Positions 2,322-26,164 of a stretch of DNA of 27,303 nucleotides are shown piece by piece. A program made the position numbers and the translations under genes. This stretch comes from a virus. The stretch's first letter is position 1; every line of letters begins with the position of its first letter. Location of the stretch: positions 1 through 27,303 of the IMG/VR virus record IMGVR_UViG_3300025645_000368; one strand, given 5' to 3'. A model generated the notes under the pieces. That model did no database searches. It saw nothing but the letters and a program-made list of their open reading frames with translations, and was not told the origin of the DNA.

Positions 2322-2651
2322 ATGTCCGATACTAAAACAATCGATTCTAGTTTACTTGACGGTGTCGATGCTAATGGTGATGGACATATATCGAAAGAAG
2401 AACTTGAGATGCATCTTGAGTTCAAACGGAAAGAGTTAGAAGATCAGGACGCAATGCGTGATGCACAAAGAAGCATGACGTGGTTTGCATTGGGTGGATT
2501 GTTGTTATATCCATTTGCTGTAGTACTTGCAGCTCTGTCTGGACTTGATGAAGCTCAAAAGACTTTGGGTTCAATGGCACCCACATACTTTGTAGCTGTT
2601 GCTGGTATTGTTGCAGCATTCTTTGGTGCACAAGCTTACTCTAAAAAATAA
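2322..2651 (+). CDS. EF-hand membrane protein
   Basis: A 109-residue protein with a canonical EF-hand loop at residues 16-27 (DANGDGHISKEE: D16, N18, D20, E27), a charged helix to about residue 50, and two hydrophobic segments at about 52-70 and 88-105 separated by a short polar turn. It therefore looks like a two-pass membrane protein with a calcium-binding cytoplasmic head. Two membrane spans in a small phage protein would fit a holin, but the EF-hand is unusual for that. It is the last gene before an intergenic region with two inverted repeats. Small EF-hand membrane proteins occur in marine phages without known function. A calcium-responsive envelope role is inference. Confidence 0.65.
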   Translation: MSDTKTIDSSLLDGVDANGDGHISKEELEMHLEFKRKELEDQDAMRDAQRSMTWFALGGLLLYPFAVVLAALSGLDEAQKTLGSMAPTYFVAVAGIVAAFFGAQAYSKK

Positions 2652-2663
2652 ACTAGAACAAGG

Positions 2664-2695
2664 TGTTCCAACAAGGATAGAACTGAGTTGGAACA
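2664..2695 (+). terminator. 9-bp inverted repeat, possible terminator
   Basis: TGTTCCAAC (2664-2672) and GTTGGAACA (2687-2695) are exact reverse complements around a 14-base loop. Two G-T pairs could extend the stem outwards. The downstream tail (TTCTTT) is only moderately T-rich. It sits 12 bases after the stop of the EF-hand gene, where a terminator would be expected, but it could equally be a protein or RNA-processing site. Confidence 0.45.
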
Positions 2696-2699
2696 TTCT

Positions 2700-2720
2700 T
2701 TGCATATATATACTATGCAA
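2700..2720 (+). repeat. Second inverted repeat, TTGCATA / TATGCAA
   Basis: TTGCATA (2700-2706) and TATGCAA (2714-2720) flank a 7-base TATATAC spacer. It begins five bases after the previous inverted repeat and ends 30 bases before the signal-peptide gene. The AT-rich centre and dyad symmetry look more like an operator or a promoter-embedded site than a terminator. No exact late promoter or sigma70 box accompanies it. Confidence 0.4.
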
Positions 2721-2750
2721 CACAATATTATTTTAAAGGATGGTTACATT

Positions 2751-3314
2751 ATGCAAAAGTTTATCATATTCTCATTGATGGTTTTCAGTAGTTTGACATT
2801 CGCTCAGACTGAACCCAGCGATGAAGTGCCGCAGGATATTATCTACACAGATAGTACAACGGATAGCACGGTCAGGTCACAAGCGTCTTCAACCACTACG
2901 TTAAAATCCCCGCCTGCTTCTGCGATCACACCTACTATAAACACCTCCAACTCGGATCTCTGTACATTCGGAGTCGCTGGTGCCGTACAGACCCAGATAT
3001 TGGGTATTTCTACGGGAACACAGGTCACGGATGATAATTGTGAAAGGTTAAAAAATGCGAAGACCCTGTATGATATGGGTATGAAAGTTGCAGCAGTATC
3101 AGTAATGTGTACTGACCGTCGTGTTTTTGACGCTATGATGAATGCAGGTACTCCATGTCCCTATGATGGGATGATTGGTAAAGAGGCAAAGACCGCATGG
3201 GAAATTGCAGAAGCAAACGGCGAAGATGTCGTAGAGGAGGATTGGAGTGATGGTACTAAGACAATGGCTGGTGCCGGTGCTGTTATTACTTTGTTGCTCG
3301 GTCTCTTACTCTAG
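2751..3314 (+). CDS. Exported protein with signal peptide, conserved Cys-rich domain and C-terminal membrane segment
   Basis: The ATG at 2751 is preferred over the upstream one at 2688 because it has AAAGGA at 2735-2740 and begins a clean signal peptide (MQKFIIFSLMVFSSLTFAQ, cleavage near FA-Q). The mature protein has a Ser/Thr-rich spacer, then a conserved core at about residues 75-150 with four Cys (contexts DLCTFGVAG, DNCERLKNAK, SVMCTDRR, GTPCPYDG), likely two disulfides. The last 16 residues are a hydrophobic segment with no charged tail. It would therefore sit in the periplasm, tethered to a membrane. Similar Cys-patterned proteins occur in marine phages without assigned function. Its 3' end overlaps the next gene by 65 bases. 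Confidence 0.65.
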   Translation: MQKFIIFSLMVFSSLTFAQTEPSDEVPQDIIYTDSTTDSTVRSQASSTTTLKSPPASAITPTINTSNSDLCTFGVAGAVQTQILGISTGTQVTDDNCERLKNAKTLYDMGMKVAAVSVMCTDRRVFDAMMNAGTPCPYDGMIGKEAKTAWEIAEANGEDVVEEDWSDGTKTMAGAGAVITLLLGLLL

Positions 3315-4125
3315 TACCGAATATGGTATTACAGGTAATGCCGCACGTGACAATGCTTTACAGTGGGTGATGAGTAATATCTTACCCCAACAGGCAGGGT
3401 TACAAGTAAACAGTGTATTCTATCGATATACGACGGTTAAGAACCCGGAAGACGATATGTTAGTACATGTGCAGAATGAAAATGCACGAGGAACTGGATA
3501 TATCTTTCGAGAGACAGATGACTGGAGTGGAGTGAACGGTAACACGATCACTAAGTCTGTTCCTGTGCCCCTGATACCAATTGATTTTTGGGGTAATGGA
3601 TCTATAGAAGTGGAAGGTCAAGGATCGGTAGTTGACACAGAGGTTGTTTATGGATACCAGTTTGATCCATGTTTCGACCCACAGTCTAACCCCACATGTC
3701 CAAACTATGTAGATCCAATGGCAGTTGTGAACGAAGCGATCGATGTAATAGATCCACTGGACGAGGATTACATTCAGGCAGAGTTAGATAGAAAGTCAAA
3801 CATGCGAGCACAGGACGAGGAAGACGAACGTCGTGAACGCCGTGCGACTGCCGAACAGGTAGAAGAAGATGATACAAGACTGGAAGTCTTACTTGGTATT
3901 GCAATAGAGTCCGAGTTTAGTGCAGATCAACTTGTATTACATAACAATTTAATGGCGTTGAAGGGTATTCCAACGTCATACACGTATACTATAAATGGGG
4001 GGACATACAACGACGCGGTGACGTTGAAGGATGCTAAACTTCCCAAGAATAGTAAAGGATTGAGAGTGAGTCTGGCGCAGGATCTTAAGCACCAGCAAAT
4101 AGTTAATTTACAGTATGCAAAGTAA
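3250..4125 (+). CDS. Exported unknown protein, signal peptide plus coiled-coil linker
   Basis: The ATG at 3250 has an excellent AGGAGG (3235-3240, spacing 9), and an alternative GTG lies one codon earlier. The protein is 291 residues with a signal peptide (about 1-22, LRQWLVPVLLLLCCSVSYSS). A conserved beta-rich domain follows, with the segments GTGYIFRETDDWSG, PVPLIPIDFWGNGSIEVEGQ and YGYQFDPC. Residues about 185-215 are Arg/Glu-rich (DEEDERRERRATAEQVEEDD) and helical. The mature domain contains two Cys (FDPCFDP, NPTCPNY). It is periplasmic or surface-exposed by inference. It shares its start region, in another frame, with the membrane anchor of the upstream gene, so the two are probably coupled. 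Confidence 0.65.
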   Translation: MVLRQWLVPVLLLLCCSVSYSSTEYGITGNAARDNALQWVMSNILPQQAGLQVNSVFYRYTTVKNPEDDMLVHVQNENARGTGYIFRETDDWSGVNGNTITKSVPVPLIPIDFWGNGSIEVEGQGSVVDTEVVYGYQFDPCFDPQSNPTCPNYVDPMAVVNEAIDVIDPLDEDYIQAELDRKSNMRAQDEEDERRERRATAEQVEEDDTRLEVLLGIAIESEFSADQLVLHNNLMALKGIPTSYTYTINGGTYNDAVTLKDAKLPKNSKGLRVSLAQDLKHQQIVNLQYAK

Positions 4126-4146
4126 GTAAGTAAAGGAGAACATAAA

Positions 4147-4650
4147 ATGTTCAAGAAGTCTTTTGTATTATTGTTATTGATGATTTTAGGTAACACTGCA
4201 ATTGCGAGTACTCAGATACCAGTTAGTGGTTCTGTAGAAAGCAAATGTGTAGTGACTCAGGATATCGGTGGGGTGTTTGGTAACCCTGCTCCCGGTACCC
4301 TAAGTACCGATCCTACTGATGGTGGTGTACGTCCTATAGTGCGATTTGATGTCGTTCAGGCAAGTTATTACAAAGCAGTAATAACTTCTCCGGACGCTTT
4401 CACAGAGAGTCCCGCACTATCTGATGTTGTATACTGGACAGGAGAGGTTACCGTTGATCAAGTATCGGACAGCACTATGAGTTCATATGATACTGACAAA
4501 GTAGAATACAACAACGTAACTGAGATCACTCTCAGTGTCGCTGGTTCTACTTGGTTCAAGATCGACTCTGAAGTAGTTTATGGCGTAGGTCGTGCATTCC
4601 CCGGTGGTTCTTATCAGACTGCTGTGGTTGCCGAGTGTATTGCCATCTAA
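4147..4650 (+). CDS. Secreted fimbria-like beta-sandwich protein (tentative)
   Basis: A 167-residue protein with AAAGGAG upstream of the ATG and a clear signal peptide (MFKKSFVLLLLMILGNTAIA, cleavage about residue 20). The mature part begins with alternating hydrophobic strands (IPVSGSVESKCVV) and ends in a Gly-Tyr segment and VAECIAI, with exactly two Cys (C34 and C164). This strand pattern, the early Cys and the C-terminal strand recall fimbrial or spore-coat-U-like subunits. However, in classic chaperone-usher pilins the second Cys is much closer to the first, so the call is weak. It is the last gene before a strong terminator. It is exported by the host Sec system, so it is probably not a capsid protein. 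Confidence 0.55.
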   Translation: MFKKSFVLLLLMILGNTAIASTQIPVSGSVESKCVVTQDIGGVFGNPAPGTLSTDPTDGGVRPIVRFDVVQASYYKAVITSPDAFTESPALSDVVYWTGEVTVDQVSDSTMSSYDTDKVEYNNVTEITLSVAGSTWFKIDSEVVYGVGRAFPGGSYQTAVVAECIAI

Positions 4651-4676
4651 GAACCGTGCACGTTTTTCCACCGAAT

Positions 4677-4701
4677 AAAGTGGCATTTACCCACTTTTTT
4701 T
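4677..4701 (+). terminator. Rho-independent terminator
   Basis: AAAGTGG (4677-4683) pairs with CCACTTT (4691-4697) around a 7-base loop, followed by further T residues to 4701. It lies 27 bases after the stop codon of the exported protein gene and before the next start, in the typical terminator position. It would end transcription of the genes from about 2.75 kb, so the following exported genes need read-through or their own promoter. Confidence 0.75.
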
Positions 4702-4718
4702 AACTGAGTAATAGAGTG

Positions 4719-5120
4719 ATGAATGGATTAAGACGTGCATACGTTTTCATAATGTTTTTAGCCATGAGTGGGTACGCAAGTGCCCACGAATGGATTCCTA
4801 CGTACCCTAAGTTAGAGATGTCACACATTCCCCGCGTGTTCACTACTCAGATGAGACTGTTCAACACTAGATCTGACGTGGCATATTACAAAATACAGGT
4901 GTTTGATGCAGAGTGGGAGAAAGTTCCGTTTGCACTAAGTACGGCAACTGTTGCCACACACACCGTTCATGTACCTTTCCAATCTAGAAAGAAGATAGAT
5001 ATATACATAAGGTCAGTTGAATCTAGTCGTGCAGTGTATGTGTGTTCTAAGTCCAGACCCTTAAAAGTCGCAGTAACTAAAACTATGTTATATTCGAGAA
5101 TCTGCTCGAAGATAAAGTGA
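4719..5120 (+). CDS. Exported small Ig-like or chaperone-like protein
   Basis: The ATG at 4719 is preferred to the GTG one codon earlier. The 133-residue product has a signal peptide (MNGLRRAYVFIMFLAMSGYASA). The mature domain of about 110 residues opens with PTYPKLEMSHIPRVFTTQM, then LFNTRSDVAYYKIQVFD, then VPFQSRKKIDIYIRS, and ends RICSKIK, with two Cys likely bridged. The order of strands, with an Asn/Arg turn after a hydrophobic strand and a later basic strand, resembles the first immunoglobulin-like domain of PapD-type chaperones, but the second domain is missing. Similar proteins occur in marine T4-like phages. No function is established. It is the first gene after the terminator, and no strong promoter is seen. 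Confidence 0.6.
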   Translation: MNGLRRAYVFIMFLAMSGYASAHEWIPTYPKLEMSHIPRVFTTQMRLFNTRSDVAYYKIQVFDAEWEKVPFALSTATVATHTVHVPFQSRKKIDIYIRSVESSRAVYVCSKSRPLKVAVTKTMLYSRICSKIK

Positions 5121-5121
5121 G

Positions 5122-5577
5122 ATGCAAATGAGAAGTATTTTAATTATACTCTTAATGATGATAAGTGTACATGTGTGGGGACAATCTAGTTCTGTCAGCA
5201 TGGCGTTACCAAGTTCATCACAGAGTTACCAGTCCGACAGAGTTCGGGCAGGACAGTTTGAGTGTACACAGGCCATTGGTTCTGCAACGAATCTAGAGTT
5301 CGGTGTAGTAGGCGTGTTGAACCAGAACGATCCATACGATACATACAACCAACAGAACGTCGGTGTGTATCCCGAAGGATACAATCCTAACGGATTCATG
5401 AGAGACGTTGGAGTGTATGCAAAAATAACAATTCCATTGGGGAAGGTACCCAAGACAAGGTTGGATTGTAACCGACTATATCAGTTAGAGTTACGTGCAA
5501 GGGAATTGGAAATAAAAAAACTGGAAGCAGAGGTATACAATCTACGTAACCTCAAGTTTGCAGAGGGCACGGACTAG
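5122..5577 (+). CDS. Exported protein with C-terminal coiled coil
   Basis: A 151-residue protein with signal peptide (MQMRSILIILLMMISVHVWGQ); an in-frame ATG two codons later is also possible. A compact domain with one Cys (FECTQAIG) and strands LEFGVVGVLNQ and GVYAKITIPLGKVPK follows. After a second Cys (RLDCNRLYQLELRARELEIK) there is a coiled coil to the end. The strand pattern could be a short outer-membrane-style beta element, and the helix could oligomerise the protein in the periplasm. It starts one base after the previous stop, so these two exported proteins probably form a unit. Family members are seen in marine phages, and the function is not known to me. Confidence 0.6.
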   Translation: MQMRSILIILLMMISVHVWGQSSSVSMALPSSSQSYQSDRVRAGQFECTQAIGSATNLEFGVVGVLNQNDPYDTYNQQNVGVYPEGYNPNGFMRDVGVYAKITIPLGKVPKTRLDCNRLYQLELRARELEIKKLEAEVYNLRNLKFAEGTD

Positions 5578-5589
5578 GGAGAACAGATC

Positions 5590-6048
5590 GTGGCAGAAAT
5601 AGAAATTGCAGGTATAAAGTTTCAAGGTGGTATGATGGCGATTGCATTTACCGCATTGACCACACTCGGTGGTGCATCATGGGGTACATTCGAGTTTTAC
5701 AAAGACTATATGGACATGAAAGAAATTGTTCAGAACATCGACGTGGGTGATATTCAAGCACGTAACGATGTGATTGAGGTCAAACTCGATGAGGCAATCG
5801 ACTACTCTCGATCAATTAAGAATGACCTAAGAGACGATTTTAACCGCATGGAACGTCGTGTAGACCGCTTCTCGACCACTGTAAGGTCAATGGAAGAGAA
5901 GGTGGATGATCAGGTAGAACGGGCAAACGAGAAGTTTGACATGAAACGAGAGACCCTACAGAATGACACCAGACTCATGGTTGAACAACTCGAAGACCGA
6001 TTAAACAAAAAGATTCAGAGCGTTTTGGATAATCCACTGGCAGACTAA
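5590..6048 (+). CDS. Membrane-anchored long coiled-coil protein
   Basis: A GTG start with AGGGAG seven bases upstream. The 152-residue product has a hydrophobic, Gly/Ala-rich segment at about residues 12-33, then FYKDYMDMKEIV, and from about 50 to 150 a continuous charged helix with repeated heptads (DDFNRMERRVDRF, SMEEKVDDQVERANEKF, VEQLEDRLNKKIQSVL). It therefore looks like an inner-membrane anchor with a rod on one side. It follows the exported cassette at a 12-base gap and could span or tether envelope components. Similar proteins with an AEIEIAGIKF-type N-terminus occur in marine T4-like phages. Function is unknown, and a lysis-accessory role is possible. Confidence 0.6.
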   Translation: MAEIEIAGIKFQGGMMAIAFTALTTLGGASWGTFEFYKDYMDMKEIVQNIDVGDIQARNDVIEVKLDEAIDYSRSIKNDLRDDFNRMERRVDRFSTTVRSMEEKVDDQVERANEKFDMKRETLQNDTRLMVEQLEDRLNKKIQSVLDNPLAD

Positions 6049-7488: not shown

Positions 7489-7669
7489 GTTATACACCAA
7501 TGAGTGGGAAGTTCATATATGGAGAGACGAGTCCTCACGAGTAGAGTACCGTTTCAAACATATAGATAAAATCAACAGCAAATGTCTGAAGGGGGTTCTG
7601 ACCACCGGAGAGGCGTTTGAATTGACTACTCAATATCCCTTTAATTACCAGATCAAAAAGGTTAAATAA
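7427..7669 (+). CDS. Conserved small phage protein, TTG start
   Basis: The start is TTG at 7427, supported by AAGGAG at 7411-7416 (spacing 10). An 80-residue soluble product with a basic amphipathic N-terminal helix (KKIGQGLSRIVSSVSQSIVK) and a beta-rich remainder (YTNEWEVHIWRD, VEYRFKHIDKINSK, YPFNYQIKKVK). The pattern NEWEVxIW ... PFNYQIKK is one I know from small T4-like cyanophage and marine phage proteins of unknown function. It overlaps the lipoprotein gene by 62 bases and touches the next start (TAATG), so it sits in a tightly coupled string. Confidence 0.6.
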   Translation: MKKIGQGLSRIVSSVSQSIVKLYTNEWEVHIWRDESSRVEYRFKHIDKINSKCLKGVLTTGEAFELTTQYPFNYQIKKVK

Positions 7670-8085
7670 TGTTCGGAATGATAAAGATGTTACCCATCCT
7701 AATTATACTTGCAGTTGCAGGTTGGGGATACCACACAGTGACTCTCGGTAAAGCTGAGAAACAAATCGCACAGTTAGAATCTAACAACGTCATACTCAAG
7801 ACCAATCAGATCCAGATGGAACAGGCACTGGAAACAGAGAAGAAGTCAAGAGAACGTGCAGAAAACAATCTACAGAATCAACTCAAAGCAGTAGGGGAAT
7901 TGACTGAGAAGTCTAACCAACTGAAAGCGGAACGTGACGAGTACCTAAGTATATTCAAACGTCATGATATGACCAGACTTGCACGTGCGAAACCCGGTCT
8001 TATAGAACCCCGTATTAATAAAGGAACGGCTGCGGTATTCCGTTCAATTGAGACAGACAGTAAGGAGATAGAAAATGCTGAATAG
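7669..8085 (+). CDS. Inner-membrane spanin-like protein (Rz-like)
   Basis: A 138-residue protein with an N-terminal membrane segment (about residues 7-24, LPILIILAVAGWGYHTV) and a long periplasmic coiled coil (about 28-95, KQIAQLESNNVI through LTEKSNQLKAERDEY). A short basic and polar C-terminal region follows. This is the standard layout of an i-spanin, which bridges inner to outer membrane and fuses them in the last step of lysis of Gram-negative hosts. The next gene is a lipoprotein overlapping by 11 bases, as expected for an overlapped spanin pair. The family assignment is by architecture, not by sequence match. Confidence 0.65.
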   Translation: MFGMIKMLPILIILAVAGWGYHTVTLGKAEKQIAQLESNNVILKTNQIQMEQALETEKKSRERAENNLQNQLKAVGELTEKSNQLKAERDEYLSIFKRHDMTRLARAKPGLIEPRINKGTAAVFRSIETDSKEIENAE

Positions 8086-8521
8086 GATCCTTGCGATATC
8101 ATCATTAGTGTTACTGACAGGATGTGCAGGTCTACCATCGTGGAATGCCACCCCCGTCATCCCAGAACCAGTCATCAAGACTGTAACTGAATACAAGACT
8201 TTAGAGATTTACCAACCACCATTACCACAAGCTATCTCCCTAGAGGATGTGGAGTTCTTTGTAATCACGGAGAAGAATAAGGATGAGAAGATTGCTGAGT
8301 TAGAAAAAATGCAGTCAGGATCATTTGTCCTATTCGGATTAACTCCACAGGGTTATGAGAACATGGCGTATAACCTACAAGAGATTCGTAGATATATACG
8401 TGAACAGAAAGAGATTGTTCTGTACTATCGAAAAGCAACACAAGAAGATGAAGATACCGATAGTCAGGATTGGTTGAAAAAGAATGAAGAATTGTCATCT
8501 GATCAATTGACAAACGACTAA
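8075..8521 (+). CDS. Lipoprotein, candidate outer-membrane spanin
   Basis: A 148-residue product with lipoprotein signal (LAISSLVLLTGC, Cys17 lipidated) followed by a Pro-rich segment (WNATPVIPEPVIK, YQPPLPQA). It then has a helical, charged region (SLEDVEFFVITEKNKDEKIAELEK, QGYENMAYNLQEIRRYIREQ). O-spanins are usually shorter, but the lipid anchor, proline-rich stretch and 11-base overlap with an Rz-like gene support the call. Proteins with the LFGLTPQGYENMAYN-type core are common in marine phages. It is the last gene before the sigma70-like promoter that leads nrdA. Its last codons contain that promoter's -35. Confidence 0.6.
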   Translation: MLNRILAISSLVLLTGCAGLPSWNATPVIPEPVIKTVTEYKTLEIYQPPLPQAISLEDVEFFVITEKNKDEKIAELEKMQSGSFVLFGLTPQGYENMAYNLQEIRRYIREQKEIVLYYRKATQEDEDTDSQDWLKKNEELSSDQLTND

Positions 8522-8582: not shown

Positions 8583-10562
8583 ATGTCAGTCAAGATTGAG
8601 AAAAACCGCGACTCCGTCCTTCAGGATTACGCAGTAGGAATGCTGAAAGACTTCTACCTAATCGAAGGGGAAAAGACTCCACAAGAAGCTTATAAACGTG
8701 CAGCGACCGCGTGGTCAGGTGGTGATGATGCACTCGCTCAGAGACTATATGATTATGTCTCTCAGAAGTGGTTCATGTTTGCTTCACCGGTACTGTCTAA
8801 TGCCCCCGCCCTTAACGGCAAAGGTAAGCAGAAAGGATTGCCTATATCATGTTTCTTGACATATGTACCTGATACTCTTGAAGGTCTGATCGACCATACC
8901 GCAGAACTACGATGGTTGTCTGTGTTCGGTGGTGGTGTAGGTGGACACTGGAGTGATGTACGCACAGTGTCTGATGTTGCACCTGGCCCTATGCCGTTCA
9001 TTCATACCGTAGATGCGGACATGATTGCATACCGCCAAGGTAAGACTCGTAAGGGTTCCTACGCAGCATACATGGACGTGTCTCACCCCGATATCATTGA
9101 GTTCCTGAACATGCGTATACCTACGGGTGACGTACAACGTAAGGCATTGAACCTACACAATGCTATCAATATTACTGATGAGTTCATGGTAGCAGTCACC
9201 ACTGGCGTCGACTTTGACCTACGAGACCCCAAAGATCAATCAGTCAAAGAAACTATCAACGCACGTAAGTTATGGGAACGTATCATTGAGACTCGTTTCC
9301 GTACGGGCGAACCTTACTTAAACTTCATTGACACTGCAAACCGCGATCTACCCCAACCTCTAAAGGATCTGGGATTAAAGATCAATGGTAGTAATCTCTG
9401 TAATGAGATCCACCTACCCACTTCAGCTGAACGTACTGCGGTGTGTTGTTTGTCGTCGCTTAATTTGGAATATTATGATGACTGGAAAGACACTACAATC
9501 GTCCAAGACCTTATTTGCATGTTGGATAATGTCCTTGACTATTTCATCGAACACGCACCCGACAGCATTCAACGTGCAAAGTTCTCTGCCTCCCGAGAAA
9601 GAAGTATCGGACTTGGTGCAATGGGTTTCCACTCCCTATTACAGAAACATGGTGTTGCGTGGGAGTCAGACAAGGCACGAGAGATCAATGATGTCGTGTT
9701 CGACCATATTAACACAGCAGCAGTGGCAGAGACTAAAAGACTTGCAGAGACAAAAGGTGAATATCCAGATGGGATTGGAAGTGGACGACGCAACTCGCAC
9801 CTGCTTGCAATTGCACCAAATGCCTCATCTGGAGTCATACTATCAACCAGTCCCTCTATAGAACCACTGAAGGCATGTGCGTATACTCATAGAACTCGCG
9901 CTGGTTCCTTCCTTGTAAAGAACATATACTTGACGGAGTTGTTGGATGCGAAAGGTGAGAACACCGAGTCTAACTGGACTTCAATCATTACCAACAAGGG
10001 TTCGGTACAACACTTACCATTCTTGACTGAAGGTGAGAAGGCAATATTTAAGACCGCACAGGAGTTGGATCAGAACTGGGTAGTACAACACGCAGCGGAT
10101 CGACAGAAGTATATCTGTCAAGGACAGTCAGTAAATCTGTTCTTCCCAACGGGAGTACCAAAGTCTTACGTGAACAGCGTCCACATTAAAGCATGGAAAG
10201 AAGGACTTAAAGGTCTGTATTACCTAAGAACTGAAGCAAAGTCCCGTGCAGAGAATGTATCGGAGAAGGTAGAACGTGTTGCATTGCAAAGTGACATGCG
10301 TACTCTAGTATATACTAAAAAGAATTGTCCCTTCTGTCAACTCGCAAAGGAAGAGTTGAAATTAAGGGGAATACCATACGACGAGATAGATCTAGCAGAA
10401 GTGGGTAAAACTGCTGCGGAAATAACTGGCCGGAAGGATGTTAAAACGGTGCCGCAGATTTATCTGGACGGCGAATACATTGGCGGATACGACGACCTCA
10501 TGGCAGTTTTGAACAATACAAATGCACAAGAGTCTGAGGAATGTCGTGCATGTGAGGGTTAA
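8583..10562 (+). CDS. nrdA: Ribonucleotide reductase class Ia large subunit fused to glutaredoxin
   Basis: Reduces ribonucleoside diphosphates to dNDPs with NrdB. The catalytic core has the first redox Cys at C90 (PISCFL), N271-L-C273-N-E275 as the radical site, a candidate second redox Cys at C288/C289, and the Y546-Y547 radical pathway. At 659 residues it is shorter than the usual 750 or so: the N-terminal ATP-cone (dATP off-switch) is absent. After about residue 572 a complete glutaredoxin is fused, with active site C582-P-F-C585 and a VPQIYLDGEYIGGYDDL thiol-binding segment. The extreme C-terminus keeps the NrdA shuttle pair C654-R-A-C657. The promoter is just upstream. The adjacent FkbM gene separates it from nrdB. 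Confidence 0.97.
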   Translation: MSVKIEKNRDSVLQDYAVGMLKDFYLIEGEKTPQEAYKRAATAWSGGDDALAQRLYDYVSQKWFMFASPVLSNAPALNGKGKQKGLPISCFLTYVPDTLEGLIDHTAELRWLSVFGGGVGGHWSDVRTVSDVAPGPMPFIHTVDADMIAYRQGKTRKGSYAAYMDVSHPDIIEFLNMRIPTGDVQRKALNLHNAINITDEFMVAVTTGVDFDLRDPKDQSVKETINARKLWERIIETRFRTGEPYLNFIDTANRDLPQPLKDLGLKINGSNLCNEIHLPTSAERTAVCCLSSLNLEYYDDWKDTTIVQDLICMLDNVLDYFIEHAPDSIQRAKFSASRERSIGLGAMGFHSLLQKHGVAWESDKAREINDVVFDHINTAAVAETKRLAETKGEYPDGIGSGRRNSHLLAIAPNASSGVILSTSPSIEPLKACAYTHRTRAGSFLVKNIYLTELLDAKGENTESNWTSIITNKGSVQHLPFLTEGEKAIFKTAQELDQNWVVQHAADRQKYICQGQSVNLFFPTGVPKSYVNSVHIKAWKEGLKGLYYLRTEAKSRAENVSEKVERVALQSDMRTLVYTKKNCPFCQLAKEELKLRGIPYDEIDLAEVGKTAAEITGRKDVKTVPQIYLDGEYIGGYDDLMAVLNNTNAQESEECRACEG

Positions 10563-12411: not shown

Positions 12412-12832
12412 TAATTGGTTTTATGAAAACCTAGCCTTTGAACCCGACGAAGAGTTTCTAAAAGACTTCGTCGGGTTTGTCTATTGTATCACCGACCCAG
12501 ATGGGAAGAAATACATAGGCAAAAAGTTCTTCTGGTCGACTCGAAGACTCCCTCCTTTGAAGGGATCTAAACGAAAACGGAAAGTCACCAAACAGTCTGA
12601 CTGGAGAGAGTACTACGGTAGTAACGAGACTCTAAAGATACTGGTAGAACATCAAGGCGGTGAAAAATACGAACGAGAGATCCTGCGTCTATGTAAGACG
12701 AAGGGGGATTGCTCTTATTACGAGGCTAAACTTCAGTTTCAATACGATGTTTTGTTACGTGATGATTATTACAATGCCTTTATTGGATGTAAAATACACG
12801 CAAAACATTTAACTGGAGAACCAGATGGCTAA
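12377..12832 (+). CDS. SegE-like GIY-YIG endonuclease
   Basis: The GIY-YIG core is seen as GFVYCITDPDGKKYIGKKFFW, followed by a basic loop (LKGSKRKRKVTK), SDWREYYGS, the conserved helix SYYEAKLQFQYD with the catalytic-type Glu, and a YYNAFIGCKIHAKHL end. This is the SegE-type phage family, related to freestanding homing endonucleases of T4 that attack related phages near nrd and other genes. The GTG at 12377 would overlap the zinc-ribbon gene by 35 bases. A better start is ATT at 12407, which has AGGAG at 12395-12399 and a stop-start overlap, giving INNWFYEN as the N-terminus. It overlaps the carbamoyltransferase by 8 bases. Confidence 0.8.
   Translation: MVRLLKRSGKINNWFYENLAFEPDEEFLKDFVGFVYCITDPDGKKYIGKKFFWSTRRLPPLKGSKRKRKVTKQSDWREYYGSNETLKILVEHQGGEKYEREILRLCKTKGDCSYYEAKLQFQYDVLLRDDYYNAFIGCKIHAKHLTGEPDG
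12441..12477 (+). terminator. 12-bp perfect hairpin inside the endonuclease gene
   Basis: AACCCGACGAAG (12441-12452) and CTTCGTCGGGTT (12466-12477) are exact reverse complements around a 13-base loop, followed by TTGTC. It lies in the first 60 bases after the probable start of the GIY-YIG gene. The stem-plus-T tail could terminate or attenuate transcription from the nrd promoter. It could also control translation or be the enzyme's own site. Confidence 0.45.
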
Positions 12833-14588
12833 CTTGGCCGCTGCATATTGGGGACACGATTCCTCAATATGTTTTTATAACGACCAAAGTAAAACCTTTC
12901 ACGTAATAGAAATAGAGAAACTAACCGGAATTAAACACTATCGTGGACATGCACGATACGAAGAACAAAAAGAAATACTAGAGAGATGTCTTAAAGTATC
13001 CGAAGAAGACTTCGGCATCGAGAACGACTATGACGTTTTCATTGTGGGATCAGATGTCGATGAACAGATAAATCCTCTGTGTCTAGATCCAGACATTGTC
13101 AAACAGGTCTTCAATGTACGCGAGACCACCACTCATCATCGTCACCATGCTGCACATGCATGGGGCGCATATGCTCAGTCCCCATGGGTAACTAAACCGT
13201 GCACTGTCTTTACTCACGATGCGGGTGGAGACGACGGTCATACTCATATATGGAGAGCTAATTCCAAACGTCTCCGATCCTTAAATGAAGTAAACTACGA
13301 CAGAACCGCCTACGAGAACATTGACACCAGATTTTTTGGTCGTAACTATAATATTTCTTCTGGTCTCGGATGTCAAAACATGGTAGGTGTAACCCCCAAC
13401 CCATTAGATATGGCAGGTAAAGTCATGGGTGCATCTGCATATGGCGATCATATGTCATACTTCGGTCACTGTGGTAAGGGTCTGATAAACGAAGACGAAG
13501 AGATTACTGAGGCAATAAATCCATCTTTCCCTTGGTTCCGACAGCAGTACACGAAGACCGAACAAGGTCTCGTGCGAGATAACATTATTCGTTATGGAAG
13601 GACATTTAGTAGTGGTAAGGAATGGTGGGTTGATAATCAAGCAGACTCGCCGGAAGAACATAACTATTTTCAAATGTTCATTAGTCCTTTACAACTCACG
13701 TGGGAAGAAGAGTGTGACGTTGCAGCAGGTATCCAAAGACAACACGAAGACAATGTATTAGAGTACCTACAGACACCCAGAGTGTGGGAAGAGATTGTCC
13801 GTAATGGTAAACGTCTAGTGATCTCGGGTGGTTGTGGATTAAACATACTAACCAATACTCGTATACAAGACGAGTTGGGTCTTGAGGTATTTGTTCCACC
13901 CGATGTGCATGATAGTGGATTACCTTTCGGTATGTTATGTAAATATATGTCAGTCAATGGTATGCGTGAGTTCGAAGGGGTGGACATTCGATATGCAGGT
14001 CAACCTATACAGGACATGGAATTGTTGGATGTACATGAATCAACTATAATTACTCTGGAACAATTAGCGGATCTATTAAAGGATGATAAGATACTAGGAT
14101 TGGTTCAAGGTACCTCAGAGGTAGGCCCTCGTGCGTTAGGCAACCGTTCTATCATCTGTGACCCCAAGGGTTGGGATAAGAAGGACAAGGTTAACATAGT
14201 CAAATGCAGAGAGAACTACAGACCGTTTGCTCCCATGGTAAGACAGGAAGACGCACATATATACTTTGAAGCAACATCATATGACAACCTAGAGTATATG
14301 AACTTCAGTGTCAAAACGCGTGAAGAGTATAAAGAAGAACTTGCAGCAGTGACTCATGTAGATGGCACGGCAAGGGTGCAGTCAGTTACCAGAAAGTCGA
14401 ATGCGCTTGTGTACGACCTTCTCAGTGCGTGTGGCGGGGTGTTACTGAACACTTCTTTCAATGTTAAGGGGAAACCGATACTAAATACTTTGAAAGAAGC
14501 ATTTGAAGTATTGGAAGAAACTGCGTTAGATGGAGTCGTGGTATATCATGATGAAAAACTTCATTACTTTACTTCCGAACTATTATAA
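12825..14588 (+). CDS. NodU/CmcH-type O-carbamoyltransferase
   Basis: A 587-residue enzyme expected to transfer a carbamoyl group from carbamoyl phosphate, via carbamoyl-AMP, to a hydroxyl of a sugar or related acceptor. The N-terminal Kae1-like domain starts AAAYWGHDSS and has the metal motif H107-H-A-A-H111 within HHRHHAAHAWGAYA, then DAGGDDGHTH. The C-terminal domain carries the hallmark E432-V-G-P-R-A-L-G-N-R and RENYRPFAPMV. Length is typical of NodU/TobZ. It starts within the end of the endonuclease gene. Carbamoyltransferases of this kind occur in cyanophages. With the FkbM gene it points to sugar decoration, perhaps together with the 18-25 kb cluster. A late promoter overlaps its stop codon. 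Confidence 0.9.
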   Translation: MANLAAAYWGHDSSICFYNDQSKTFHVIEIEKLTGIKHYRGHARYEEQKEILERCLKVSEEDFGIENDYDVFIVGSDVDEQINPLCLDPDIVKQVFNVRETTTHHRHHAAHAWGAYAQSPWVTKPCTVFTHDAGGDDGHTHIWRANSKRLRSLNEVNYDRTAYENIDTRFFGRNYNISSGLGCQNMVGVTPNPLDMAGKVMGASAYGDHMSYFGHCGKGLINEDEEITEAINPSFPWFRQQYTKTEQGLVRDNIIRYGRTFSSGKEWWVDNQADSPEEHNYFQMFISPLQLTWEEECDVAAGIQRQHEDNVLEYLQTPRVWEEIVRNGKRLVISGGCGLNILTNTRIQDELGLEVFVPPDVHDSGLPFGMLCKYMSVNGMREFEGVDIRYAGQPIQDMELLDVHESTIITLEQLADLLKDDKILGLVQGTSEVGPRALGNRSIICDPKGWDKKDKVNIVKCRENYRPFAPMVRQEDAHIYFEATSYDNLEYMNFSVKTREEYKEELAAVTHVDGTARVQSVTRKSNALVYDLLSACGGVLLNTSFNVKGKPILNTLKEAFEVLEETALDGVVVYHDEKLHYFTSELL

Positions 14589-18352: not shown

Positions 18353-19201
18353 ATGATTGATGTGTACCGTGAGCCTATCTCAGGTCAACCAATAACGGTG
18401 AACGAAGACTATGAGATTGACTGGCGCGGTACCATTGGTGTCGGGGATATTTTATATGGTCTCAATGCCGCTCATGCATTGGCCAAGATGTATGACCATC
18501 CAATAAAGATGAATGTTTTCTGGACGCATGATGAGGACTATGTCTACCATTATGATGATCCAGAAACAATCATTGAACGTACCCACGTACTTCATAGTTT
18601 GTACCATAACCAACATGATGTTACTGTAAATCATATCTTCAATTCAACAGATGAGGAGATAGAGAAACTACGGTGGCGAGGTTTTGGTCACAAACGAGAT
18701 CAACAGAAGGTGCTCACCTTCCACCACTGGATATTCCGCAAGGATCTATTCCAACGTTCTGAAAACAAAGTAGTGTTCTGGAGACCCACCTTTAACCGTG
18801 AGATACCTTCGGGTGGAAAGAAATGGAAGATGACCTTCTCTGTAAAAGAATGGGAAAGGATCATTATGTTTCTTGAACTCAAGGGTTACAATCTTGTGGA
18901 GTTAACCTACCGCACTCCTGTAAGGGAGGCAATTTATCATATAAGTACTTCCAAGTTCTGCATCTTTTATGATGGGATGTGGCAGTACATCGCCCGTAAC
19001 TTTTGTAAACCCGTTATCACACTAGGTGGTAGTAGTATCGCAAAGATACATTCACCGCAGGGCGTACACTTCAGTAAACCCCATGATGACAGTAACTGTT
19101 TTTGGGATTACCTATATAAGTTACCTAAGAACGAAATGCATTTGTTGAGTCGTGCAAAACGTTATAAGAAACAATTAATGGATAAGATAGATGACTTTTA
19201 A
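18353..19201 (+). CDS. GT9-like (heptosyltransferase-type) glycosyltransferase, tentative
   Basis: A 282-residue protein. Near the N-terminus GTIGVGDILYGLNAAHALA is the kind of Gly-rich loop found in GT9 heptosyltransferases. The C-terminal half has TSKFCIFYDGMWQYIARNFCKP followed by VITLGGSS, like the acceptor/NDP-sugar region of GT-B enzymes. No DxD is expected. Such proteins occur in marine phages. The substrate is unknown, and the fold assignment is by motif impression only. First gene of the cluster at 18.35-24.94 kb. It overlaps the next gene by 11 bases, so the two are co-translated. Confidence 0.6.
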   Translation: MIDVYREPISGQPITVNEDYEIDWRGTIGVGDILYGLNAAHALAKMYDHPIKMNVFWTHDEDYVYHYDDPETIIERTHVLHSLYHNQHDVTVNHIFNSTDEEIEKLRWRGFGHKRDQQKVLTFHHWIFRKDLFQRSENKVVFWRPTFNREIPSGGKKWKMTFSVKEWERIIMFLELKGYNLVELTYRTPVREAIYHISTSKFCIFYDGMWQYIARNFCKPVITLGGSSIAKIHSPQGVHFSKPHDDSNCFWDYLYKLPKNEMHLLSRAKRYKKQLMDKIDDF

Positions 19202-20168
19202 AATTGATCGTGCAGTGATCGAGATCAACGGGGGATGTAACTACTCGTGTTCTATGTGTCCTCAAGACGTACGAACAGGTGGACGACACAAAGACTTCCT
19301 CAAGAAAATGTCACTTCAAGAGTTCGAGGACAACGTAGCAGACTGTGCACAGTACGGTCTACGTGTTGTTAATCTCGATGGTTCAGGTGAAGCAACACTC
19401 AATCGCAATCTACCCAAGTACATCGAAATCGTTAAGAAGTATGGTGCGAAGGCATTCATCTTCTCGAATGGTTATCGTATGGAAGGGAAGTTCATGCGCG
19501 ACTGCGTAGATGCAGGGTTAGACTTCTATAGATTCTCTTGGATTGGATATGATGTCGAAGCATATGACAAGTGGATGTACAACCGAATCGCAGGTAACTT
19601 TGATAACACATGGGCCAAAGTAAAAGAAATGCGGGATTATGTCAAAGAGACTAATTCAGATTGTGTTGTGTCTACCTATCATCTAATCACAGACAACGAC
19701 AATCTAGACTTTGAGTTAGATCATTACAAACGTATTGTTGACGAACTCGATGTCAAAACAGAAATATGGAAGATGCACAACTGGTCGGGTGTCACTGACA
19801 TCTCTGAGTCTGGTGTACGTAAAGGAGCAGTGAAGACTTGTGGAAGACCCTTCTCTCCAGATGTTGTAATCCGTGCAGGTGGATTGGAAGGCAAGAAGGG
19901 TGCTGTCCATCCGTGTTGTCAAGTACTTGGTAGAGATGAGGAAGCAGTCCTAGGACACACAAGTGAAACTGATATCAAGTCCATCTTCTTTGGAGAGGAA
20001 TATTCTAAACTACGAGATCAACACACTTCAGGAGATTATCCTGATTTCTGTAAGTCGTGTGATTTTCTAATAGACGACCCAGAGGTACTAGTGTACACAA
20101 ACCACGAACGCGATCTTATGAAGATGCATGGCACTGAGTTCAATCTGCGTGACTATCAGTCAGAATGA
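19191..20168 (+). CDS. Radical SAM enzyme with SPASM-like C-terminus
   Basis: A 325-residue enzyme. The 4Fe-4S motif is C16-x3-C20-x2-C23 (GGCNYSCSMCPQD), and GSGEATLN is the SAM-binding GGE-like motif. A C-terminal Cys-rich region (KTCGRPFSP, HPCCQVLG, then FCKSCDFL) is SPASM-like, typical of enzymes with auxiliary clusters that modify peptides, sugars or other small molecules. The substrate is unknown. It lies between the GT9-like gene and the GT25-like gene, overlapping them by 11 and 4 bases. A second radical SAM gene follows at 21507. Clusters would need Fe-S supply, and an IscA-like gene is 2.4 kb upstream. Confidence 0.88.
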   Translation: MTFKIDRAVIEINGGCNYSCSMCPQDVRTGGRHKDFLKKMSLQEFEDNVADCAQYGLRVVNLDGSGEATLNRNLPKYIEIVKKYGAKAFIFSNGYRMEGKFMRDCVDAGLDFYRFSWIGYDVEAYDKWMYNRIAGNFDNTWAKVKEMRDYVKETNSDCVVSTYHLITDNDNLDFELDHYKRIVDELDVKTEIWKMHNWSGVTDISESGVRKGAVKTCGRPFSPDVVIRAGGLEGKKGAVHPCCQVLGRDEEAVLGHTSETDIKSIFFGEEYSKLRDQHTSGDYPDFCKSCDFLIDDPEVLVYTNHERDLMKMHGTEFNLRDYQSE

Positions 20169-20722
20169 AACCTGATGTATGGATGATCCAGATGCCCGAC
20201 AACCCCACTTCGATGTACTATCGTGGTAGAGTTGAGGCCTCATGGGAAGGATATAATGTAAAATATTTTAATGCGATTACTCCAGAAACAATGGATAAAC
20301 TGGGGTACTTGCATTTTGGTAAGAAACGTGGTACAATAGAGTTCACACCGACAGAGAAAGCAGTGTGGTATAGTCATGTAGAGTTATGGGCAAAGGCAAG
20401 AAGGAAACCTATAATAATCATAGAACATGACGCAATGTTAGTATTGCCTGTACCAGATGACCTGTTATGGGAAAAACATGACATGGTGTGTCTAGGTCAT
20501 ACAGGTAAAAACAAGAAGGCGTTACCGGGACTTGCGTACTATCTGAAACCCGAAGTCGCGACTCGTATGGTCAGAGATGCGAAGAGTATAGATAATATCA
20601 CATGGAACTCAGATGGTACTATCCACGGGTACTGCGATAAGAACGGGGTATTTGTAACCAAACACGTGTCTCAGATACAGAATAGATCTATTGGCACAAC
20701 TATTGAGCATAAGAAAAAGTGA
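20165..20722 (+). CDS. GT25-like glycosyltransferase
   Basis: A 185-residue protein with the GT25-type core: FTPTEKAVWYSHVELWAK (SH at 70-71) and KPIIIIEHDAMLV, where E87-H-D89 replaces the usual E-D-D, then LGHTGK, GLAYYL and KNGVFVTKHVSQIQNRS. GT25 enzymes add galactose-like sugars to LPS or proteins in Gram-negative bacteria. The one-residue change at the metal motif may alter activity. It overlaps both neighbours by four bases (ATGA and GTGA). Confidence 0.7.
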   Translation: MKPDVWMIQMPDNPTSMYYRGRVEASWEGYNVKYFNAITPETMDKLGYLHFGKKRGTIEFTPTEKAVWYSHVELWAKARRKPIIIIEHDAMLVLPVPDDLLWEKHDMVCLGHTGKNKKALPGLAYYLKPEVATRMVRDAKSIDNITWNSDGTIHGYCDKNGVFVTKHVSQIQNRSIGTTIEHKKK

Positions 20723-21510
20723 AACGATTAGTATATCAAGTTTGTTTAGGCAAAGCGAGAGACTCGAAACTATACCAGCACTGCATTGAATCTGTAAGTC
20801 AGTACTGTAAGAAGTATGGATTCATCCATATGGTACAACAAACTCCTATGCTGAACATACGTCCAGATCCATTCATGAGTAATAGATCAGAGGACTCGTG
20901 GAAGAAACATGGCGGTTTCCTACCTATCTACGAGAAGGAGAATGCATTCTCTTTCCTCAATGAGTATGATCAGATCGCGATCGTTGATGCTGATATCCTC
21001 ATCCGCGAAGACGCACCAAACATCTTTGAAGACTTCGGTACTGATAAACCCTTTGGTGCAGTATGTGAACGTGAGATGAACATCAACGATCAGTATGTTC
21101 AGAAGATAAGAAACTATAGTACTATGCAATACAACATGTTGCACAGTAAAAAGACTGACTTCAAACCTAACGATAAGGGTTTCGAGTTTTTCAACATGGG
21201 TCTGATTCTACTCAACTCAAAACTATTCCGTCCATACCTGAATGGTCAAACCCCCTCAGAGTTCATCACACGGTATGAGTTCATGGACTTTGTCAATGGT
21301 AAAGGGCCATGGAAGTGGTCGACTGACCAAACATTACTGAACTACTTCCTGAAGAAATATAAGATCCCTACTGTCCATCTGGATCAAAAATGGAATGGAT
21401 TATTCACGGCAAACAAGGACATCTCTAAATGTCACTTTGTTCATTTCTTTTTAAAAGATTTGTTACCGGCTAAGGGTGAAAACGTAGAGGAGTTAATGGG
21501 TCTAATATGA
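20719..21510 (+). CDS. GT8-like (GT-A) glycosyltransferase
   Basis: A 263-residue protein, GTG start with a GTGA overlap. D90-A91-D92 (IVDADILIR) is the DxD metal motif, followed by EFFNMGLILLNSK and STDQTLLNYFLKKYKIP then LDQKWN, the order seen in GT8-type retaining transferases (DxD, later NxG, then D-Q of the sugar site). N-terminal YQVCLGKARDSK is an unusual cap. The sugar donor and acceptor are unknown. It overlaps the second radical SAM gene by four bases, so it is part of the coupled run. Confidence 0.75.
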   Translation: MKRLVYQVCLGKARDSKLYQHCIESVSQYCKKYGFIHMVQQTPMLNIRPDPFMSNRSEDSWKKHGGFLPIYEKENAFSFLNEYDQIAIVDADILIREDAPNIFEDFGTDKPFGAVCEREMNINDQYVQKIRNYSTMQYNMLHSKKTDFKPNDKGFEFFNMGLILLNSKLFRPYLNGQTPSEFITRYEFMDFVNGKGPWKWSTDQTLLNYFLKKYKIPTVHLDQKWNGLFTANKDISKCHFVHFFLKDLLPAKGENVEELMGLI

Positions 21511-22619
21511 GTGAGAGTTTCGAAGAGAAGACACAGAAATATTCTACGTGGGGAGACAAGTATCTCCAACACACTGACGTACTGTATTCTATCCAGTATG
21601 AAGATACTTTCAAACCTATCAATATACAACTATGTTTGTGTGAAATGTGTGATAGTGATTGTCCGTTCTGTTCAGTTGCTGCACGTCCACTCAAGAGTTA
21701 TATACCGTGGGAGAAACTGGAGAAGTTATTTGAAGACTTCCATAAGTTGGGTGCAAAGGCAATTGAGATTACCGGTGGTGGTAACCCAATGTTATACCGC
21801 GATAAGGTTGCAAAGAAGAACATTAATGACGTAGTTCTACTTGCAGCAAGTTACGGGTTCGATGTGGGTATCATCACCAACACGGAGAAACTAGAACGTC
21901 ACCTTAGACCAGAGGTTTACCCTCATCTCAAGTGGATACGAGTCAGTCTAATTAAGTTAGACGAGAAGTGTGCACCCGAAGACTATGACTTTGGTTCGTT
22001 TCCAAAAGATAAGATCGGTCTATCCTATATCATCTATGATGGTACCAATGGTATACCGGATGAGTTGTCACGTACGAATAAACCCTACACTGGTACAACC
22101 GTAGAGTCGATCAAGAAGATCGCAAAGTTGATTGAGTTGAATCCTGAGATCAAGTTCTGTCGTCTCGCAGGTAATGCCTTGATTGATGGTGCACAGGTAG
22201 AAGTACAGAACCAGTGGAAAGAGGTTGTGAAACAGGTTGATGTCGATAACAAGTTCTTCATCAAGGACATCTGGGATAACGCGACACCTTACGAAAATGG
22301 TTGTTATGTGGGTCTCACACGTCCCTACATTGCGCCACACCCCGATGGTGGAGATTATCAGGTGTATGTGTGCACAAGTCACGTACTTGAGAAACGTACA
22401 TATGATCTAGATTTTTCATTGGGATCTATTGACAATATCCTTGAGATATGGGATACTTGTAACATACAATACGCGAAGACTGGTATACCTTATACGATAA
22501 GGGGTGCAGGTGACGGTGGTTGGAAAGCAGCATGTCCCAACTGTTTTTACTTCAATAACAATAAACTATTACATACGGTCGCTCAAGAGATGAGTCCAGA
22601 CGATAGGAACTTTGCATAA
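21507..22619 (+). CDS. Second radical SAM enzyme
   Basis: A 370-residue enzyme. C48-x3-C52-x2-C55 (CDSDCPFC) is the 4Fe-4S motif, with two more Cys at 43 and 45, followed by ITGGGNPML as the SAM-binding motif. The C-terminal region has YVCTSHVLEKRTYDL and ACPNCFYF, again Cys-rich and SPASM-like. It differs clearly from the enzyme at 19191 in length, motif position and spacing, so it is not a recent duplicate. It may act on a different step of the same pathway. It overlaps neighbours by four bases and one base. Confidence 0.87.
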   Translation: MSESFEEKTQKYSTWGDKYLQHTDVLYSIQYEDTFKPINIQLCLCEMCDSDCPFCSVAARPLKSYIPWEKLEKLFEDFHKLGAKAIEITGGGNPMLYRDKVAKKNINDVVLLAASYGFDVGIITNTEKLERHLRPEVYPHLKWIRVSLIKLDEKCAPEDYDFGSFPKDKIGLSYIIYDGTNGIPDELSRTNKPYTGTTVESIKKIAKLIELNPEIKFCRLAGNALIDGAQVEVQNQWKEVVKQVDVDNKFFIKDIWDNATPYENGCYVGLTRPYIAPHPDGGDYQVYVCTSHVLEKRTYDLDFSLGSIDNILEIWDTCNIQYAKTGIPYTIRGAGDGGWKAACPNCFYFNNNKLLHTVAQEMSPDDRNFA

Positions 22620-23212
22620 TGATTACAGATTCAGACTTCGGTGAAGCATATTACAGTACGGTAAACTATGTCGACTTCTTAAAAAGAGGTGACCGGTATA
22701 AGAGACTCGCAGCAGACATCAATGATCTGTTAAAGAAGATCGGACTCAACAAAGGGCCTGTTCTAGACTTCGGATGTGCAGTTGGGTTTGTTGTTGAAGC
22801 TATGGAGAACGAAGGATACGAAGATGTGTCCGGTGTAGATATCAGTGAGTGGGCGTTGAATCAATGCAGAGAGAAAGGATTGGACGTTCGTAACACTGTT
22901 GATTGGGACAAGGAGTATGGTCTCACCTTTGCACTAGACGTATTGGAACATATGAATCTAGACCAAGTAAACGATTTTCTGTTTGGTTTAAAGTCAGAGA
23001 CTCTGGTATTTCGTATGCCGATATGTGCAGAAGCTGGGGAAGATTATGTTTTAGATTGTTCAAGACAAGATCCCACACATCAAATTAGGATGACAAGAGA
23101 TGAGTGGGAAGACATTTTCAATAGGTCTGGATACTACTGTGTAGATCTTAATCTACCTACTATTTACTGTAGTGACGGTGTGTATTCCGGACTCGCAATA
23201 CGGAGAGATTGA
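22619..23212 (+). CDS. Class I SAM-dependent methyltransferase
   Basis: A 197-residue protein with motif I P-V-L-D-F-G-C-A-V-G (V48 to G56), acidic motif II (D74 in VDISEWAL) and the DVLEHMNL segment (D107, E110, H111) typical of small Methyltransf_11/23-type enzymes. It methylates O, N or C of a small molecule. The acceptor cannot be told. Start ATG at 22619 shares the last A of the previous stop. In context it probably modifies the cluster product. A DNA methyltransferase is unlikely: no target-recognition domain, no NPPY or PC motif. Confidence 0.85.
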   Translation: MITDSDFGEAYYSTVNYVDFLKRGDRYKRLAADINDLLKKIGLNKGPVLDFGCAVGFVVEAMENEGYEDVSGVDISEWALNQCREKGLDVRNTVDWDKEYGLTFALDVLEHMNLDQVNDFLFGLKSETLVFRMPICAEAGEDYVLDCSRQDPTHQIRMTRDEWEDIFNRSGYYCVDLNLPTIYCSDGVYSGLAIRRD

Positions 23213-23574
23213 TGAAATATTTAATGGTAGGAATACATGGTGACCCTTCTTGTAACGTGGTGAACGGCATGATGGAGGTATGGTGTAACCAAAACAATCA
23301 TATGTACGAATACAATTACCTCCCGAGTCTGACTCCTGAGTGGCAGACCATGCTGATGGAAGTTGCACAACGTGAGGATCCAAGTTACAGGGGAGGATTT
23401 GAACCAGAAGATAACTGGGAACTTGCAGGTACATTTACTGACAGTGATACACCACGTATGGATTTTGCTGAGATTTCTAACTTCCGTATTGTCCCGCAGT
23501 GTTTTACAATTGAAGATGGTAACTGGGGATATGTTGGTGGAATGGAAGAGATTAAAGACCTATGCGAGACATAA
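23212..23574 (+). CDS. Unknown protein in the glycan cluster
   Basis: A 120-residue soluble protein from the ATG at 23212, which overlaps the previous TGA (TGATG). It includes MVGIHGDPSCNVVNGMMEVW near the start and an acidic, aromatic tail (ISNFRIVPQCFTIEDGNWGYVGG). No motif of any known enzyme is clear to me. Conserved location inside the cluster suggests a partner or accessory role. Three Cys near the start, middle and end might form a metal site. Confidence 0.55.
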   Translation: MKYLMVGIHGDPSCNVVNGMMEVWCNQNNHMYEYNYLPSLTPEWQTMLMEVAQREDPSYRGGFEPEDNWELAGTFTDSDTPRMDFAEISNFRIVPQCFTIEDGNWGYVGGMEEIKDLCET

Positions 23575-23577
23575 CTT

Positions 23578-25551: not shown

Positions 25552-25826
25552 CTATGCCAAATGAAAGACGTAATGCTGTTAACCGTACTCGTATATTCTT
25601 ACTTGACTTAATGGATCCTAAGAAGACACCACGTGTACCAAAATCCATAAGAAAAGAAGCGGCAAGTTGTCTGAGACATTACCCAGGCGAATACTATATG
25701 TTATTAGCTTCAGAACAGGCACCAGAAGTATTTGGTGAATGGAATAGTGGATGGCCAGACCTAGACCTAGAGAGTGACCCTGTTCTGGCGGTAATAGACA
25801 AAGTTTTTGAAGAACACGGTAAGTAA
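25548..25826 (+). CDS. BPSL0761-like small protein
   Basis: A 92-residue protein with MPNERRNAVNRTRIFLLDL, PKKTPRVPKSIRKEAASC and LRHYPGEYYML. This pattern (ERxxAVxxTRxFLxxL, then a basic linker and RxEAxxxLRHYP) is typical of the BPSL0761 family of small bacterial and phage proteins, as I recall it. Its role is not known. It is translationally coupled to the tiny membrane protein and lies one base before the next gene. Confidence 0.65.
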   Translation: MTMPNERRNAVNRTRIFLLDLMDPKKTPRVPKSIRKEAASCLRHYPGEYYMLLASEQAPEVFGEWNSGWPDLDLESDPVLAVIDKVFEEHGK

Positions 25827-25827
25827 A

Positions 25828-26151: not shown

Positions 26152-26164
26152 AAGGAGAAGATGA

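Follow-up and report, generated by a model that had tools for sequence, protein, structure and literature searches.

The complete 27,303-base IMG/VR contig IMGVR_UViG_3300025645_000368 (hereafter the window, meaning the whole stretch of DNA that was analyzed) represents part of the genome of a T4-like marine phage. Among annotated phages, C48C1 (Kyanoviridae) is the closest in ribonucleotide reductase, at 77% identity, and Methylophilales phage Melnitz comes next. The window carries a cassette of six genes, P2 to P7, which lie on one strand at positions 2751–6048, mostly overlap, and encode predicted exported and membrane-anchored proteins (Table 1). An earlier note, made from the sequence alone, had drawn a cassette of exported and membrane proteins across 2322–6048, and all seven open reading frames (ORFs) claimed there are present at the given positions. 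P2 to P7 stand as a set, but the first of the seven, P1, is a common neighbor rather than a core member. Elsewhere, the P1 family (c6) sits before the cassette, after it, or between P6 and P7, and because of this wandering we place the core at 2751–6048 without P1. The EF-hand of P1 falls just under the threshold of Pfam EF-hand_5 (24.5 bits against a cut-off of 25.9, E-value 1.7e-5).

Table 1. Features at the cassette locus of the window; the starts given for P2 to P7 are the best start codons.
Feature	Position	Strand	Description
P1	2322..2651	+	109 amino acids; one EF-hand and a membrane hairpin; frequent mobile neighbor, outside the core
Inverted repeat	2664..2695	+	Perfect, 9 nucleotides, loop of 14 nucleotides; between P1 and P2
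P2	2751..3314	+	Signal peptide, Ser/Thr-rich linker, 4-Cys domain, C-terminal hydrophobic segment
P3	3250..4125	+	Signal peptide, 2-Cys domain, charged segment, C-terminal domain
P4	4147..4650	+	Predicted exported Ig-like beta-sandwich with N-terminal extension; pilin-like fold
Stem-loop	4677..4697	+	Terminator-like, with T-run; directly 3' of P4
P5	4719..5120	+	Predicted exported single PapD-like domain; conserved Cys pair
P6	5122..5577	+	Predicted exported 2-Cys domain (EFGVVG..GVY.RI.IP.G) and C-terminal coiled coil
P7	5590..6048	+	N-terminal membrane anchor and long coiled coil ending DNPLAD

Conservation and Distribution of the Cassette

Comparison across loci supports P2 to P7 as a real co-inherited cassette. 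The neighborhood search that the earlier note had proposed recovered the ordered set P2-P3-P4-P5-P6-P7 in 71 loci, the window included, from the best 80 P2 loci together with loci from other collections. An independent search started from P4 agreed with this P2-drawn set, as 67 of 77 new loci had the complete cassette. In the pooled 136 complete loci (97 distinct by P4 sequence), the gene order never varies and the six genes always share a strand, and the cassette is therefore no chance assembly; 22 incomplete loci mostly meet a contig end, and a few are without P7 for other reasons. The P2 and P3 genes overlap by 62–179 nucleotides in every complete locus, and P4 to P6 are close or overlapping. 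In the window, the 65 bases at 3250–3314 are read in two frames, one for the hydrophobic C-terminal end of P2 and the other for the signal peptide of P3. Distance matrices of P2 to P6 are correlated with one another (r 0.59–0.82, with 0.82 for P2 and P3), and all cassette genes are under purifying selection, with ratios of nonsynonymous to synonymous substitution rates (dN/dS) of about 0.07–0.3 against close relatives where dS is finite. Searches of IMG/VR returned at least 599 relatives of P2, the most widespread cassette member, and at least 583 stretches with relatives of P4, from which we regard the cassette as a common phage module.

The module is accessory amongst close relatives. Both flanks of the cassette are colinear between the window and the two phages C48C1 and Melnitz, in which the genes at 467, 1047, 6082, and 6453 have homologues, followed by ribonucleotide reductase, but neither phage has P1 to P7 at that site; in C48C1, a glycosyltransferase-like gene (assigned by eye from sequence) occupies it. 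Downstream, at 7669–8521, the window has an overlapping spanin-like pair, consisting of an N-terminally anchored coiled coil and a lipoprotein, which is homologous to the spanins of Melnitz. Melnitz, without the cassette, retains these spanins in the corresponding region. The retention of the flanks in both phages, and of the spanins in Melnitz, indicates that the cassette is dispensable for lysis.

No homologues of P3, P4, or P5 were found in 50,697 deposited phage records, and the cassette in its six-gene form therefore does not seem to be known from any cultured phage. The Gp23 T4-type capsid protein is encoded by 5 of the 22 larger carrier contigs and a T4-type DNA polymerase by some carriers; one 91.8-kb carrier has a DNA polymerase of a different family, a 4,794-amino-acid tail-fiber protein, and no Gp23. 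P2 is also present in the Pelagibacter phages HTVC115P, HTVC023P, and others, Mosig, podovirus ctXG6705, and roseophages. In pelagiphages and other marine phages, a second architecture consists of P2, a large exported protein (P3L, mostly 480–570 amino acids), and P7. It shares with the six-gene cassette a homologous P2, a homologous P7 where detected, and probably the C-terminal segment of P3 and P3L, but has the single P3L in place of P3 to P6. Of 80 loci found from the HTVC115P protein, 60 had both P2 and P7 and the rest had only P2 within the available stretch; in Mosig, P2 has a large exported neighbor and P7 was not detected. The C-terminal segments of P3 and P3L, aligned with hhalign over their final 45 residues, gave an E-value of 1e-4 for this one comparison at a probability of 55%, which is only suggestive of a relationship. 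The P2-P3L-P7 genes of HTVC115P, ctXG6705, CRP-810, and relatives, and P2 and its large neighbor in Mosig, are annotated as hypothetical or by weak similarity. The annotation of the CRP-810 P2 homologue as OmpA was rejected, as no Pfam domain was found in it.

In bacteria, P2 homologues were limited to 23 genome contigs, almost every one of which belonged to a metagenome-assembled genome. P4 was not found in 321 genomes of one bacterial class, and 337 genomes of another class yielded none beyond a phage-contaminated bin and one match (E-value 1.4e-3) judged to be due to chance. Four contigs of Rhodobacteraceae Water_Bin34 (L088, L089, L090, and L092) each have the whole or part of the cassette, and this bin therefore seems to contain several phage contigs.

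Export Signals and Protein Families

By a simple signal-peptide rule, signal-peptide-like N-termini occur in 99% of P2, 88% of P3, 97% of P4, 99% of P5, and 100% of P6 family members, compared with 13% of other ORFs from the same loci. P7 is also positive by this rule (86%), but its N-terminus is a membrane anchor followed by a coiled coil. The signal peptides of P2 to P6 have no lipobox as judged by eye. The mature part of P2 has four cysteines in 228 of 257 members, and two cysteines are found in the mature parts of P4 (151/153), P5 (147/153), P6 (144/148), and, mostly, P3. Such near-fixed even counts in P2 to P6 are as expected for disulfides in an oxidizing compartment. The exported or membrane-bound nature of the products and the paired cysteines of their mature parts, both read earlier from the window alone, thus extend across the families. 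One T4-like contig of 155 kb has no cluster of exported genes other than the cassette. An extra small exported protein with an outer-membrane-protein-like look is encoded directly after P7 in a 155-kb T4-like contig (L126, G024:C1:142826-143149).

As far as we found, this module has not been described and its protein families have no curated functional name. Pfam, NCBIfam, and PADLOC gave no assignment for any cassette family, with only weak coiled-coil matches to P7 in PADLOC, and no family matched a named PHROG. P2 and P6 match PHROG 20531 and PHROG 37374, respectively, both of unknown function. A sequence-profile search of the PDB with P2 to P6 returned nothing, and P2, P3, P6, and P7 have no solved or curated relative, the PDB search having covered the first three. 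Virion-protein PHROGs did not match any of P1 to P7, in keeping with the earlier description of the set as having no obvious virion role. The 4-Cys domain of P2 is characterized by the motif ..NSDLCT.GVAGAVQTQ..CQD.RVF.AM..AGTPCP..G.IG..AK..W. Weak matches to P6 in Klebsiella-group giant phages and one Vibrio phage hint that its C-terminal motif may be more widespread.

Predicted Folds of P4 and P5

P4 and P5, among the proteins for which structure prediction of the mature domains had been suggested, were modeled confidently with AlphaFold2 from the locus alignments (predicted local distance difference test, pLDDT, 92.9 and 93.1, respectively). P4 has conserved cysteines C34 and C164 and a conserved N-terminal extension, I-x-[IV]-x-G-x-V-x-S-K-C, which is unpaired in the model. 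Approximately half of its 50 best Foldseek matches are chaperone-usher pilins, the largest class (CfaB, FimF, FimG, FimA, CsuA/B, the PapG pilin domain, and Caf1), and the others are mainly staphylococcal adhesins and other beta-sandwiches. A viral fold library returned mostly uncharacterized proteins of weak similarity to P4.

The P5 model comprises one PapD-like domain of approximately 110 residues. Its best Foldseek matches in the PDB are the pilus chaperones FaeE, Caf1M, SafB, PapD, and CsuC (E-values 5e-4 to 1e-3; template modeling (TM) score normalized by query, TMq, 0.50–0.61), and MSP domains, which belong to the same fold class, rank alongside them. The model ends at its last strand, presumably about where the pilin-contacting strand of PapD ends, a comparison that we take as a lead only.

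Proposed Function of the Cassette

The pilin-like and chaperone-like folds amongst the exported proteins suggest that these phages probably build an envelope structure in or on the host cell. Our interpretation, which we give about an even chance of being right, is that P2 to P7 form a phage-encoded envelope or surface complex in the infected cell that serves in superinfection exclusion or adhesion, possibly by a donor-strand mechanism. As an accessory, horizontally mobile module, the cassette would specify a multi-protein complex in the envelope of an infected Gram-negative host. P2, with its C-terminal anchor, and P7, with its N-terminal anchor and coiled coil, would be positioned in the inner membrane, and P3, P4, P5, and P6 would leave the cytoplasm through Sec and acquire disulfide bonds in the periplasm. 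P5 would probably chaperone or cap P4, the pilin-like Ig domain, and P3 and P6 may connect the two to the membrane proteins. Between P2 and P7 of the second architecture, the single large P3L takes the place of P3 to P6. In the finished complex, P4 (or P3L) would most likely be displayed on the outside of the infected cell or within its periplasm, and the altered surface may keep competing phages from adsorbing or from delivering their DNA, or make infected cells sticky.

The curli genes carried by pelagiphages are a precedent for phage-borne surface fibers, and both aggregation or ‘sibling capture’ and superinfection defense have been discussed for them (PMC7029224, PMC9599517). More generally, phage curli/type VIII secretion clusters, known from pelagiphages and Melnitz, have been proposed to alter the surface of the infected cell (PMC9599517, PMC7029224, PMC9004378). 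Like the P2–P7 cassette, these clusters are exported, multi-gene, accessory cassettes in variable genome regions of marine phages, but their proteins are unrelated, CsgG was found in none of 26 records of cassette carriers, and the cassette is apparently anchored in the inner membrane rather than built around a known outer-membrane pore. A role at the surface or in entry is favored over one in lysis by this precedent and by the accessory status of the module, whose site is empty in relatives.

Chaperone-usher pili (FimA/FimC/FimD and the archaic CsuA/B-CsuC-CsuD) are alike in having an exported Ig-like subunit with a Cys pair and an N-terminal extension and, adjoining it in one operon, a PapD-like fold. 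The cassette differs in its lack of a detected usher, its single-domain chaperone, the absence of detectable sequence similarity, its four extra unrelated proteins, and its tailed-phage carriers. Membership in the chaperone-usher systems was therefore ruled out (no usher in 38 records, a one-domain P5, and no convincing Pfam match for P4 or P5), as was a curli system (no CsgG in 26 carrier records). The cassette may nevertheless work in a similar manner, through a chaperone-like domain and an Ig-like subunit set on two inner-membrane proteins. No phage-borne chaperone-usher or pilin cassette was found in the literature.

Several results weigh against the proposed envelope or surface complex. 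Usher (PF00577) was not above the cut-off in 38 carrier or related records, several of them fragments (the window, 22 carrier contigs, four phages, and 11 further contigs of up to 160 kb), with a positive E. coli control, and CsgG (PF03783) was found in none of 26 carrier records, with positive controls. As no usher, CsgG, or recognized outer-membrane channel was found, it is not apparent how the proteins would reach the surface. The matches of P4 begin at an E-value of 1.4e-3, with TM scores of 0.32–0.46 for the best ones and of no more than about 0.5 for the pilins, and the fold match is thus only moderate. The profile of mature P4 was indistinguishable from column shuffles when compared with E. 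coli K-12 pilins; an apparent match to E. coli pilins (71% probability) was due to the signal peptide and disappeared on the mature part. The P5 profile was not significant against seven E. coli K-12 chaperones, and P5 has no second chaperone domain, of which known pilus chaperones have two in all. Pfam scans of 47 P4 members found no fimbrial subunit family, apart from a single stray FimH_man-bind match (E-value 0.036), and those of 53 P5 members found no PapD match. The likeness of P4 to fimbrial subunits and of P5 to an Ig-like chaperone domain, as claimed in the earlier note, therefore holds for the fold and fails for the sequence. Finally, P7 correlates weakly with the other cassette genes in the distance-matrix comparison (r 0.31–0.47), which makes it the loosest member.

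Since neither an usher nor a secretion channel was found, the same proteins may instead form a non-polymerizing periplasmic complex, in which Ig-like P4 and P5 bind each other and P2, P3, and P7 and, acting from within the envelope, obstruct a receptor or the entry of DNA without any fiber. The moderate resemblance of P4 to pilins, which lacks sequence support, and the fit of P5 to MSP domains about as well as to chaperones agree with this alternative, which we consider possible though rather unlikely. Pilins are, however, the largest class of P4 matches, and a PapD-like P5 adjoining P4 in one operon is a pairing that would be unexpected by chance. We are doubtful of an usher-less donor-strand pilus or fiber, in which P4 would polymerize, P5 would serve as a minimal one-domain chaperone, and P2, P3, P6, and P7 would be a new inner-membrane-anchored platform for assembly and export; if true, this would be the first case of a chaperone-pilin system encoded by a virus.

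A lysis-stage envelope complex that aids or times envelope disruption appears improbable. The spanin-like genes lie 1.6 kb downstream, an XhlA-like coiled-coil membrane protein is encoded upstream (738–1028), and CRP-810 and ctXG6705 each have a lysozyme gene close to P2. Two-component spanins (Rz/Rz1) are likewise small phage envelope proteins with overlapping genes, a membrane anchor, and a coiled coil, but the cassette has no apparent lipoprotein partner, a C-terminal anchor in P2, six genes, and a separate spanin-like pair. Melnitz has homologous spanins without the cassette, the window has its own endolysin in addition to the spanin-like pair, and six exported proteins far exceed the needs of any known lysis system, so that the lysis control suggested in the earlier note has become less likely. 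A virion role, in which the proteins would be built onto virions by assembly on exported material, either as the cell lyses or afterwards, or would serve some other virion function, is very improbable even though the P2 gene follows tail-fiber or fiber-like genes in HTVC115P and CRP-810, given the clear Sec signals and cysteine parity, the lack of virion-protein PHROG matches, the accessory status amongst close relatives, and the assembly of tailed-phage virions in the cytoplasm.

If the proposed envelope or surface complex is correct, lytic marine phages spend several kilobases on exported envelope machinery, as proposed for pelagiphage curli. P4 and P5 offer a minimal chaperone-subunit pair for expression and study in E. 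coli.

Non-coding Features and Neighboring Genes

The inverted repeat between P1 and P2 is a possible transcription boundary. The stem-loop after P4 is not conserved across loci, and P4 and P5 overlap in many of them; the hairpin could lift P4 above the downstream genes, but the gap is absent there in many loci. The T4 late-promoter motif was observed three times against 1.2 expected, which is not significant, and an Rfam search gave no match.

Beyond the spanin-like pair, the large subunit of ribonucleotide reductase (8583–10562) has, by sequence, a C-terminal glutaredoxin-like extension, which the C48C1 match spans. A large protein resembling NodU-type carbamoyltransferases by eye is encoded at 12825–14588. 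A run of genes at 18353–24939, resembling glycosyltransferases, two radical-SAM proteins, a methyltransferase, and a HAD-like/nucleotidyltransferase fusion, may constitute a sugar pathway, and two clearly similar short genes are arranged in tandem at 25807–26503 (YTPDNWVVLK...GGWSGGYLDGD).

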